NCBI GenBank assembly: GCA_947258695.1
Contig: CAMYJG010000009.1
Location: 1-64,000, forward strand
Source: an uncultured Ectothiorhodospiraceae bacterium
GTDB lineage: Bacteria > Pseudomonadota > Gammaproteobacteria > UBA6429 > Thiohalophilaceae
DNA: 64,000 bases
Reading direction: 5' to 3'
This document shows positions 7,679 through 42,552 of the stretch, piece after piece (position 1 is the stretch's first letter; each line of letters begins with the position of its first letter). Made by a program: the position numbers and the translations under genes. The notes beneath the pieces are model-generated. The model saw only the letters and a program-made list of their open reading frames with translations, was not told the origin of the DNA and ran no database searches.

Positions 7679-8584
<906 letters not shown>

Positions 8585-37220: not shown

Positions 37221-38036
37221 TTATTTACCTAACTCTTGTGCTAATTCTTCAGCTCTTTTTTGTGCTGCGGTCATGGCTTGATTAAAAATATCAATTAATC
37301 CTTGTTCTTCGAATACTTTGATTGCTTGTTCCGTTGTGCCACCCGGCGAGGTCACTTTTTGCCTGAGTGAAGCCGGATCCTCTTCTATTTCAAGCGCCAG
37401 TTTGGTCGCACCAAAACCGGTTTGAATAGCCAGCAAGCGTGCAGTATCGGCCGGTAGCCCCAGGTTTTCCGCTGCTTTTTCCATGGCTTCTAAAACCATA
37501 AAGAAATAGGCCGGGCCACTACCCGACAATGCGGTCACGGCATCGAGTTGGTTTTCATTATCTACCCAAACAGCAAGTCCTACCGCGCGTAAAATTGATT
37601 CAGCTATTTCTTTTTGTTCATCCGTGACCAGTGAGTTGGCATATAAGCCGCTTGCACCACTTAAGACTAATGAAGGTGTGTTGGGCATAGCACGAACAAT
37701 GGCTTTGTTTGAACCTAACCAGGTATTTAAACTTTCACTGGGTATACCGGCTGCAATGGTGAGGTAAAGAATAGTCTCTTTTGCTTTTAGTGGTGTCGCG
37801 ACAGTTTTTAAGATTTGCGGTTTAACAGCAAAAACAACTACATCACACTCATCGACCAGTTTCTGGTTATCTGCAAATGTCTGTATAGAAAAATCTTTAG
37901 TTAAGGCCGCTCGTATTTCTTCGTTGGGATCAGTGGCAAACAGCTGTGTATTTTTAATGCCACTTGAAATCAAGCCACCGATTAAACTGCGCGCCATATT
38001 GCCGGCACCGATAAATCCGATATTTATTGTATTCAT
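37221..38036 (-). CDS. proC: pyrroline-5-carboxylate reductase
   Basis: 271 residues. The N-terminal Rossmann motif is IGFIGAGNMARSLIGGL, with VFAVKPQ and RAMPNTPSLV. The C-terminal dimerisation domain has the family signature ALSGSGPAYFFMVLEAM and LRQKVTSPGGTTEQAI. It reduces pyrroline-5-carboxylate to proline with NAD(P)H. In most relatives proC directly follows yggS; here a chemotaxis gene pair separates them. Confidence 0.97.
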   Translation of the reverse strand: MNTINIGFIGAGNMARSLIGGLISSGIKNTQLFATDPNEEIRAALTKDFSIQTFADNQKLVDECDVVVFAVKPQILKTVATPLKAKETILYLTIAAGIPSESLNTWLGSNKAIVRAMPNTPSLVLSGASGLYANSLVTDEQKEIAESILRAVGLAVWVDNENQLDAVTALSGSGPAYFFMVLEAMEKAAENLGLPADTARLLAIQTGFGATKLALEIEEDPASLRQKVTSPGGTTEQAIKVFEEQGLIDIFNQAMTAAQKRAEELAQELGK

Positions 38037-38364: not shown

Positions 38365-39999
38365 ATGGGGCAGCCAGCTGAACAAACGAATACTACTGCA
38401 CTACAACAGAAATTTCTGGCAGTAGAAGTTTGTGGTCATGGTTATGGCATACCTATTGAAACCGTTAAAGAGATTGTTTATCACTCTCGCATTAACCCCC
38501 TTCCTCAAACTCCTGCATTTGTTCGTGGAGTCAGCCTGATTCGCAATGAAACCATGCCAGTATTAGATTTAAATATTTTACTCGGCAAAAACGAAATTAC
38601 AGAAATCCATCATGAAAGTTGCTTCATCGTTATTCAGTTGGCGGACAAAAGTGGCAAGTTAACTCATATTTGTTTATTGGCAGATCGTATTCTACAGACA
38701 TATAAGGTTGATCGTGATGATGTAGATAGCATCCCTCAAGTTGATAAACAGGTAATCGTCGAGTATGTCAGAGGTATTGCACGGTTTGATGATGATCTCT
38801 TTATAGTTATAGATCCTGCCGGATTAATTTCACCATACATGGACGAAATAAACGGTTACGATATTTATAGAGAGTCAGAAAAAAATCGCCAGGAAACCGG
38901 TGATGATCAGTATTTAGCCAAAATCAAGAATAAATCTCAGGTAAGTAAATATCTTTCAGCGAGTATTGCTGGAGAAGAATATGCCATTCCTTTAACTAAT
39001 GTATTCCAGGTAATAGGAAAAAAAGATCTAAAAAAATATTCTGATGATGATTTACCAGGCTTTTTGGCTAGTGCCACCATTATTAACAATAAAGTTGTTG
39101 GTATTGTTAAGTTAAAAGATGTATTAGCAGAGAATGAAGAGGTCACTGAGAAAGTTCATAACACAGACGAGGTGATAAACCAGGAAGTTGTTGTGTTGGT
39201 AGATTTTGATGAAAGCATGTTGGGTATTATGGTTGATAAGATCGGTCGTACTTACGAATGCCATGAAGAACTTAAGCAACATTCATTCTGTAGTAATCTC
39301 AATCGTAATCGGATAAAAAGCCTCGGATTTATTGAGAGCGAAGAAGGCTGCATTGAGGTGATTGAGCCAACGGGTGTTCTTGTGAACAGTGAGCGAAGTG
39401 AGGTTGTATCATGGATGGGGTGTGTTGAACAGATTTATAAAATGTCTGACCTGCAGAACAAAGCAGCCGATACCGAAAAACAGATTGATGAGGATAATCA
39501 TTTTGCAAAGTATGCTGGCTCTTATCTTATCGTGCAAGTTGGCAAACAACTGGTTGGAATAAAAAATGATAATGTCGATGAAGTTCTGACGTTTGATGAT
39601 CTAATCCCTTTAAGTAATAGCCCATCCTGGTTTATGGGGTTGCTGGATCTGCGACAGAATACCTATCCAGTTATTGATTTACTCTCACGTCTTGATGTGG
39701 ACAAAGACAATGCCGTAGATGAACAACGCAAAGTTCTTGTAATGGTTAAACATGACAATGAAAAAATTGCGCTTCATGTAAATCATATTGTGAACTCTTC
39801 AGCAATTAAAGAAGAACATTTACAGGGCTTAGAGGATTCAGAGCTTTTTGTAAACAATGAAGCATTATTAGCGGTTGCGAAAGTGGATGTAGGATTGGTT
39901 CATATCGTTAATATGGAGAAAATTGTTAGTGGCGAAGAAATATCAGCAAGACGATTACTGAATGAGCTACAGGCTCAATCGAATAGTAGTAAATTATAA
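38365..39999 (+). CDS. protein with three CheW domains
   Basis: 544 residues. Three CheW-like domains follow one another at about 12-165, 190-345 and 385-530: each begins with a short beta strand pair (FLAVEVCGHGYGIPIETVKE; YLSASIAGEEYAIPLTNVFQ; YLIVQVGKQLVGIKNDNVDE) and has a later FVRGVSLIRNETMPVLDLN-type segment. CheW couples receptors to the kinase CheA. A triple-CheW protein could cross-link several receptors or kinases, or act as a CheV-like buffer, though no receiver domain is present. The ATG is preceded by AGAAGGGA. An MCP gene follows after 30 bases. The gene lies between proC and yggS, a place where no chemotaxis gene is expected. Confidence 0.9.
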   Translation: MGQPAEQTNTTALQQKFLAVEVCGHGYGIPIETVKEIVYHSRINPLPQTPAFVRGVSLIRNETMPVLDLNILLGKNEITEIHHESCFIVIQLADKSGKLTHICLLADRILQTYKVDRDDVDSIPQVDKQVIVEYVRGIARFDDDLFIVIDPAGLISPYMDEINGYDIYRESEKNRQETGDDQYLAKIKNKSQVSKYLSASIAGEEYAIPLTNVFQVIGKKDLKKYSDDDLPGFLASATIINNKVVGIVKLKDVLAENEEVTEKVHNTDEVINQEVVVLVDFDESMLGIMVDKIGRTYECHEELKQHSFCSNLNRNRIKSLGFIESEEGCIEVIEPTGVLVNSERSEVVSWMGCVEQIYKMSDLQNKAADTEKQIDEDNHFAKYAGSYLIVQVGKQLVGIKNDNVDEVLTFDDLIPLSNSPSWFMGLLDLRQNTYPVIDLLSRLDVDKDNAVDEQRKVLVMVKHDNEKIALHVNHIVNSSAIKEEHLQGLEDSELFVNNEALLAVAKVDVGLVHIVNMEKIVSGEEISARRLLNELQAQSNSSKL

Positions 40000-40029
40000 T
40001 TTAAGGTTCTTAAAATAAGGCATAAGACA

Positions 40030-41760
40030 ATGGAAAATTTATCAATTAAAGCGAGACTGACCGGACTGGTCGGTATCCTGGTTGCCATGGTAGTAGGGAT
40101 TGGCATGTTTGGTATGGTTAGCACACATAATATCATTGTACATATGGAAGCAGATGCGCATAGAGAGCAGGACTTAGCACATACTTTGGAATTGGCTGAA
40201 CGCACCGAGATAGAATTTAAGACCCAGGTACAGGAATGGCAACGGATTTTGTTAAGGGGAAATAATTCTGATGCATTCTCTAAACATAAAAAGTTATTTA
40301 ATAAACAACACAAAATTGTTATCAAGGATCTCGATAAACTGACGAAAAAATATAAAAAACTTAATCTTGATACTGATGAAATTAGAAAAGTCCGTTCTTT
40401 GCATAGTGAGATTAAAGAACAATATGATAGTGCACTTAAGAAATTTAACCCTCGTAATTCAGAAGCTGGAAAATATGTTGATAAGTTAATTAATGATATT
40501 GATAAACCCGTAGTAAAAGCTTTAGATGAAATGATTCATCACCTGTCAAAAGAAATTGATCTGGTTGTAGAAGCATCAGAAGCTTATGCAGCAAAAATGG
40601 AATCTTCAACAAAAACAACAGACATCACGATAATAGTTATAGCTACAATTATTGGGTTGACTCTTGGTTGGTTATTAATAAATAGTATTAATCGTGCTTT
40701 AGAAAGCCTGGTGTTAGCTACACAACGTATTGCAGAAGGTGATATGAGTGTAGAAATTGAGGTTGTCGGTAAAAATGAAATTTCTAAAGTACAACGTTCA
40801 CTATCAGATATGAGTAAAAAATTACGTAGTGTTGTGAGGCAAGTAAGAGATGGCTCTCAAAATGTAAACCTGAGTTCTGATGAGATATCGCGTGGCAATC
40901 TTGACTTATCTAGTAGAACAGAAGAACAGGCATCATCACTTGAAGAAACAGCTTCAAGTATGGAAGAAATAACTGTGACAGTACAACAAAACAGTGATAC
41001 AGCATCACAAGCGGTTGAGCTGGCAAAAAACTCGACAAACAAAGCAGAACATGGTTTATCAATCACACAATCGACCGTGTGTGCAATCAATGAAATTAAA
41101 GAAAGCAGTGAGAAGGTAGCAGATATAATTAGCGTGATAGATGAGATTGCTTTCCAGACTAACTTGTTAGCATTAAATGCTTCTATTGAGGCTGAGCGTG
41201 CAGGCGAACAGGGACGAGGATTTTCAGTGGTAGCGAATGAAGTACAAAAACTGGCGCAACGAAGTGCAGATGCCGCTAATGAAATAAAAGCATTGATAAA
41301 AAATAGTACCCAGAAAGTTCAAGAGGGTACCGAACTGGTTATTAGCTCCAGCAATGCTCTTGATGAGATTGTTAAGGCATCGAAGGAAACGACACAATTA
41401 ATGGAATCTATTTCACAAGCTAGCCAGGAACAGTCCGTGGGTGTTTCTCAAATTAATGTTGCCATTACACAACTGGAAGAAACCACACAACAAAATGCGG
41501 CACTGGTTGAAGAGATCTCAGCTGCAAGTACTTCGATGAGTGAGCAGGCAAGTACTTTGAATAAAATTGTTTCGTTTTTTAAACTGAATAATGATGTGAG
41601 TCCTGATGTAACACAGCAGGAAGCAAAAAAGCCCGATTTGGTTGTTGATAATACCGCTCTAGTTGAAGAGGAAAATAAAACTCAAAAGCAAGCGGCTGAT
41701 AGGGTGGGTAACCTGGCACTAAAAAAAGAGTCCGGTGACAATGAATGGAAAGAGTTTTAG
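40030..41760 (+). CDS. methyl-accepting chemotaxis protein with C-terminal CheR docking tail
   Basis: 576 residues. Membrane helices at 8-31 ([20 protein letters not shown]) and 188-212 ([20 protein letters not shown]) flank a periplasmic four-helix-type sensor domain rich in Lys/Glu. A HAMP domain follows at about 212-265, then the signalling domain with the hairpin tip [20 protein letters not shown] and [20 protein letters not shown]. The last five residues are EWKEF, fitting the xWxxF pentapeptide (NWETF in Tsr/Tar) that tethers CheR. The ligand is unknown. It pairs with the triple-CheW gene, probably one transcript. Confidence 0.95.
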
Positions 41761-41853: not shown

Positions 41854-42552
41854 TTACTGACGCGGTCCAAATATTGCGGTTCCTATTCTCACCATGGTTG
41901 AACCTTCGGCAATGGCTGCTTCCATATCATTACTCATGCCCATAGACAGAGTATCCAGCGCTATTGCTTGTTTTTCTATTTCAGCTTTGAGTTCATGCAA
42001 TAAATGAAAAGGTTTTCTTTGTAGTTCAAAGTTATCAGTAGCAGCAGGTATTGTCATTAAGCCACGTAAGCGTAACTGAGGTAATTGCACTATATCTTTG
42101 ACTAAAGTCAGGGTTTTTTCTGGCGGTATTCCGGATTTAGCACTTTCACCGCTGGTATTAACCTGGATGCAAATATTGAGTGGCGGTAATCCTGGATCTC
42201 GCTGTTCGCTAAGCCGCCTGGCAATTTTTAAACGGTCAATGGTATGTGCCCAGTGAAAATTTTGCGCAATTTGGCGTGTTTTATTTGATTGAATCGGCCC
42301 GATAAAGTGCCATTCGATAGCCGGCTCTGTGATCGCGTTTATCTTGGAGAGTGCATCCTGGAGATAATTTTCGCCAAAATGGGTCTGATTTACGCTAAAA
42401 GCGGCCCGAATATCTTCAATTGGGTGGGTTTTGCTGACCGCTAATAGCTGAACTGAGCCGGCTTTTCGGTCATATTTTTGTTCCAGGGCCTTAATTTGCT
42501 CCCGTAGCGACTTTATGTTTTGTGTAACTGTATTTTGACTTGCATGCAGCAT
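41854..42552 (-). CDS. yggS: PLP homeostasis protein (YggS/PROSC family)
   Basis: 232 residues forming a single TIM-barrel like the N-terminal domain of alanine racemase. The PLP-lysine motif LLAVSKTHP, HFGENYLQDA, WHFIGPIQSNKTR, QVNTSGESAKSGI and SMGMSNDMEAAIAEGSTMVR are all present. It binds PLP without clear catalysis and balances vitamin B6 and amino-acid pools. It is divergent from pilT, as in many gammaproteobacteria, and convergent with the inserted MCP gene. Confidence 0.96.
   Translation of the reverse strand: MLHASQNTVTQNIKSLREQIKALEQKYDRKAGSVQLLAVSKTHPIEDIRAAFSVNQTHFGENYLQDALSKINAITEPAIEWHFIGPIQSNKTRQIAQNFHWAHTIDRLKIARRLSEQRDPGLPPLNICIQVNTSGESAKSGIPPEKTLTLVKDIVQLPQLRLRGLMTIPAATDNFELQRKPFHLLHELKAEIEKQAIALDTLSMGMSNDMEAAIAEGSTMVRIGTAIFGPRQ

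Follow-up and report, generated by a model that had tools for sequence, protein, structure and literature searches.

Our analysis reveals a two-gene chemosensory module, private to the genome of an uncultured Ectothiorhodospiraceae bacterium, in which an adaptor protein with three concatenated CheW domains adjoins a membrane chemoreceptor (MCP). Triple-CheW proteins are known from chemosensory class F9 as CheW3; judged by its gene content and domain sequences, the present module is not F9. What remains unusual is a CheW3-like protein that occurs without DosM, is paired with an F7-type membrane receptor and carries a degenerate middle domain. We tentatively read the adaptor and receptor as an accessory pair that belongs to the flagellar array of class F7, a reading to which we give somewhat less than an even chance.

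The window, i.e., the whole 64,000-nucleotide stretch analysed, carries the two genes on the same strand with 30 bp between them (Table 1). The earlier note, made from the sequence of this stretch, had described a 544-residue protein with three CheW domains and a complete MCP between proC and yggS, and the ORFs and Pfam domains are exactly as claimed. Its statement that proC and yggS are normally neighbours also holds: the gap between them is 50 to 353 bp in 24 of 24 same-family genomes in which the stretch read contained both genes, including all seven of the same genus, and here it is 3.8 kb. Furthermore, no cheA is present within the module, as the note had said. Searches of 40 genomes of the family, 369 of the class and 398 of the phylum yielded no ortholog of the triple-CheW adaptor, nor did an exact-peptide scan of genome contigs; as scoring in the class and phylum sets covered the best few candidates of each genome, this absence is not absolute. 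Since no ortholog of the pair was found, no conservation backs its function.

Table 1. Features of the module and its flanks (positions in the window)
Feature	Position	Strand	Evidence and remarks
proC, left flank of the insertion	37221..38036	-	78-81% identity to same-genus genomes
FliA (sigma-28)-like promoter, candidate, TAAAGGAA-N11-TCCGCTAA	38305..38331	+	33 nt before the adaptor start codon; consensus scan and whole-genome pattern count
Triple-CheW (CheW3-like) adaptor gene	38365..39999	+	544 aa; ORF; PF01584 in three stretches
CheW domain 1	38413..38832	+	PF01584, 82 bits; the most canonical of the three, with E38, G57 and R62 retained (E. coli numbering)
CheW domain 2	38950..39369	+	PF01584 match at 38950-39279, 35 bits, model positions 2-100; degenerate: E38Q, G57S, R62N
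CheW domain 3	39523..39933	+	PF01584, 75.5 bits; keeps E38, G57, R62; differs at G63, G99, D103, G133
Transmembrane MCP gene, 36H class	40030..41760	+	576 aa; ORF; HAMP and MCPsignal; alignment with F7 and 40H receptors; TM hydropathy
MCP signalling domain, short form, unusual hairpin tip	41017..41484	+	genome MCP-domain search; receptor alignment
C-terminal pentapeptide EWKEF (CheR-tether motif x-[HFYW]-x2-[HFYW])	41743..41757	+	sequence; EWEEF/EWDEF in genus F7 receptors
yggS, right flank of the insertion	41854..42552	-	69-74% identity to same-genus genomes

A site matching the sigma-28-like promoter of the earlier note does precede the adaptor gene, and as a motif match it is a plausible candidate; that it is used as a promoter, we infer. 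The pattern TAAAG-N15-CCGMTAA has 15 matches in the genome versus 2 for a reversed control pattern, and two of the other matches immediately precede MCP genes. Most of the remaining matches have no obvious flagellar gene after them, and support for a FliA-like promoter is therefore moderate.

Pfam CheW (PF01584) matches the adaptor with a total E value of 4e-52. In CheW, E38 and R62 form a salt bridge linking the receptor and kinase sites (PMC3828127). Domain 2 has lost E38, G57 and R62, whereas domains 1 and 3 keep all three. The Q, S and N that domain 2 carries instead are unlike nearly all other CheW domains in our residue table. Structure prediction, as the note had suggested, was run on this domain. 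The AlphaFold2 model, built from five window sequences and of moderate quality (mean pLDDT 66, pTM 0.64), shows the complete set of ten strands, 4 and 5 among them. Since the 18 PDB matches of this model at E<=0.001 in Foldseek are all CheW or CheA entries, the degenerate domain is predicted to retain the CheW fold. For the whole protein, AlphaFold2 without an alignment yielded no usable model (pLDDT 31). Elsewhere in the genome, a 574-aa protein on contig C19 (L059 5531-7255) has a degenerate N-terminal CheW and, as judged by eye from the sequence, possibly a TM segment as well as a C-terminus resembling LysM.

The MCP has two TM segments, a HAMP domain and one signalling domain (Pfam; hydropathy). 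By alignment, it is an F7-type 36H receptor. Receptors of the 36H class and the x-[HFYW]-x2-[HFYW] CheR tether have been linked to F7 (PMC7184735), and the window MCP has both the 36H signalling-domain length and the pentapeptide, as EWKEF. It shares 48% identity and the same methylation-region sequence with the Aer2-like receptor of the F7 cluster on contig C13. Both have a signalling domain 28 residues shorter, which is not the case for F6-type 40H receptors or PilJ; the same segments are deleted in these two and in same-genus F7 receptors, whereas the F6-type 40H receptors retain them. The NCBIfam E. coli-type MCP model aligns to the window MCP over near-equal lengths. Several substitutions in the tip are absent from the other F7 receptors. 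Its QKL is found in no other tabulated receptor, its EVQ recurs in PilJ and two F9-type receptors, and its NAS and FSV recur in one receptor of genome G013.

The source genome has F6-like (contig C1), F7-like (contig C13) and Pil-Chp systems. The F7 cluster comprises cheY, cheA, cheW, parA, aer2, cheR, cheD and cheB, beside fliA and other flagellar genes. In this assembly, its cheA lacks 34 nt at the P3-P4 junction (L057 ~8434-8455), which interrupts the reading frame; same-genus copies are intact. The deletion may be genuine or may stem from misassembly; in the former case, the expected kinase is lost. In the same cluster (L057 10014-13852), and likewise at L176, L178 and L179, ParA adjoins an Aer2-like receptor, a possible array-partition pair; the N-terminus of the receptor has a DPLAW motif that recurs in a small protein encoded next to parA in clusters of the same genus. 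Relatives (L146, L147, L148 and L149) have an additional chemosensory cluster that includes two CheW genes; the CheW matches of the source genome contain no such cluster.

Because the window MCP is a 36H receptor with EWKEF, matching F7 receptors and unlike PilJ or F6 receptors, F7 is a likelier partner than ChpA. According to our preferred reading, the pair, an insertion in this lineage, would probably be expressed with the flagellar regulon, presumably as a joint operon. The MCP would sense in the periplasm and signal via its F7-class 36H tip, with the adjoining three-CheW protein as its adaptor. Domains 1 and 3 would take the place of CheW in the baseplate of the array, coupling the receptor to the kinase, while domain 2, having kept its fold and lost its coupling residues, may be a spacer or an inert ring position. 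The signal would reach the F7 kinase of the contig C13 cluster, with F7 CheR acting through the EWKEF tether for adaptation. An array-bridging role had been envisioned in the earlier note and is reasonable, as F9 offers the precedent of CheW3-DosM baseplates for which CheA is dispensable (PMC7534058, PMC9321776); a link to ChpA, which the note named among possible distant kinases, is not supported. Several observations weigh against the F7 accessory pair. The F7 kinase may be inactive owing to its broken frame, the tip substitutions could alter partner choice, the promoter is a motif match, and all three CheW domains score best with CheWs other than that of F7 (see below).

Among the alternatives, a kinase-independent array modulator, in which the adaptor stabilises or breaks up receptor clusters as CheW-only rings, in the manner of FrzB and without activating a kinase, is unlikely but survives best. 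The module has no kinase, domain 2 has lost its coupling residues and the F7 cheA is interrupted. Besides, there is a precedent in FrzB of Myxococcus xanthus, a divergent CheW with no binding to its CheA and without strands 4 and 5 (PMC6952110), and F9 arrays assemble without CheA (PMC7534058). However, the E38-R62 pair is kept in domains 1 and 3, and the model of domain 2 includes the very strands missing in FrzB.

The earlier note knew of no well-described system built this way, which is wrong for the triple-CheW part. In class F9, DosM, with two signalling domains, and CheW3, with three CheW domains (VC1403 and VC1402 in Vibrio cholerae), form cytoplasmic double-layered arrays, which also assemble when CheA is deleted (PMC7534058). 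CheW3 has been described as occurring solely in F9 systems with DosM as its partner, and partial F9 sets without cheA have been reported in 8 of 2781 species (PMC9321776); CheA is thus no requirement for F9. The Che2 system of Rhodospirillum centenum also carries a tripartite CheW (PMC2890560). Our plasmid search returned triple-CheW proteins from Methylosinus, Eleftheria, Azospirillum, Agrobacterium vitis, Novosphingobium, Rhizobium and Sphaerotilus, all of them encoded beside a chemoreceptor gene and with cheB, cheR and cheA after them, in many cases along with a HEAT protein. A profile search across the 369 class genomes recovered triple-CheW proteins from 10 others, and the loci read there show the same kind of operon wherever the contig is long enough. 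MCPsignal matched the adjoining receptor twice in both of the two receptors checked. From CheW3 and the adjacent receptors, we infer that these operons and R. centenum Che2 are F9.

The window adaptor shares the three concatenated CheW domains of F9 CheW3 (by Pfam, and by predicted fold for domain 2) and aligns with it collinearly at ~20% identity (E 1.7e-17). In contrast, the adjacent MCP has one signalling domain where DosM has two, no receptor with two signalling domains in one frame occurs among the 11 MCPsignal matches of the source genome, and the module lacks the CheB, CheR, response regulator (RR), CheA and frequent HEAT protein of the F9 operon. Plain F9 membership was rejected on the absence of DosM and of these operon genes. 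When the window domains were placed with the F9 positional clades, the AU test gave p values of 0.17, 0.024 and 0.45 for domains 1, 2 and 3, with long branches on all three. In HMM scores, which depend on the diversity of each CheW set, all three window domains preferred the CheWs of a two-CheW system in relatives, to which we give the putative label F8-like, over the F9 positions, and ranked these CheWs best rather than F7 CheW. With hhalign, the F8-like CheW was favoured for domains 1 and 3 and F9 domain 2 for domain 2. Descent from F9 CheW3 or from F7 CheW was thus not settled by the long-branch trees, and the HMM scores favour another origin; an independent triplication of CheW is the origin we favour from these comparisons.

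A highly diverged, partial F9 set, in which CheW3 was kept and DosM, CheB, HEAT, CheR and CheA were lost, appears quite unlikely. The collinear three-domain architecture, the existence of partial F9 sets (PMC9321776) and a tree that leaves room for domain 1 or domain 3 among the F9 positional clades are in keeping with it. On the other hand, the adjoining MCP is a transmembrane 36H receptor in a genome whose MCP matches include no double-signalling one, the grouping of domain 2 with its F9 counterpart is mildly rejected, and the HMM scores point to F8-like CheWs.

Recently acquired genes that have no present function, or an assembly artefact, make a decidedly improbable explanation. The module occurs in a single draft genome, whose F7 cheA is interrupted, and the GC content of the module (~36%) is the lowest of the window (mean 41.6%). 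GC3 is 28-31% in the module versus 36-45% in yggT, proC, yggS and pilT; since chpA in the same window also has a GC3 of 29%, composition is weak evidence of acquisition. No tRNA or convincing flanking repeat was found around the module as the mark of a mobile element. Against this explanation, both ORFs are long and intact with good start context, and the flanks are continuous and genus-typical. Coupling of the MCP by the triple-CheW protein to ChpA and type IV pili, the link proposed in the earlier note, is very improbable and was rejected as a leading idea: a pilG-pilH-pilI-pilJ-chpA cluster does lie on the same contig from ~12 kb downstream of the module (chpA starts ~16.4 kb downstream), but distance alone is no link, unrelated genes lie in between, a FliA-like site precedes the module, and the 36H MCP with its CheR tether resembles the genus F7 receptors and is unlike PilJ in signalling-domain length, tip and C-terminus, so that neither a PilJ-like receptor nor chp linkage ties the module to Pil-Chp.

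A more speculative extension of the F7 reading, unlikely as a whole, is that a second triplication of CheW, independent of F9, gave rise to this three-CheW adaptor, which works for a transmembrane F7-type receptor whose tip diverged along with it. Domains 1 and 3 would couple, domain 2 would be a built-in inert ring position, and such a pre-assembled half ring might tune array cooperativity or insulate its receptor. With a CheW3-like adaptor next to an F7-type membrane receptor, concatenated CheW would be seen to occur outside the F9/DosM context, and nature would have supplied a test of how fused and inert CheW positions affect a receptor array.

The module matches F9 CheW3 (V. cholerae VC1402; R. 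centenum Che2, its class being our assignment) in that one protein with three concatenated CheW domains adjoins an MCP gene and can, in partial F9 sets, occur without CheA. In contrast to the window pair, F9 CheW3 is partnered by DosM, which has tandem signalling domains and mostly no sensory domain, and by CheB, HEAT, CheR, RR and CheA; low identity and the degenerate domain 2 set the window adaptor further apart. With the Aer2-type 36H system of F7, the window MCP shares the receptor heptad class and an EWxEF tether. However, the F7 clusters here carry a single-domain CheW, whereas the window pair lies apart from them, with a three-domain adaptor and an altered receptor tip. Like FrzB, the window protein is a divergent CheW-type adaptor that would act on receptors, and both bring up the idea of kinase-free CheW rings; FrzB is a single domain without strands 4-5, whereas window domains 1 and 3 keep their coupling residues. 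The F5-class CheA with two CheW domains (PMC10542144) likewise has duplicated CheW domains in one protein, but there the CheW pair is part of the kinase, and the window protein is free of kinase domains.
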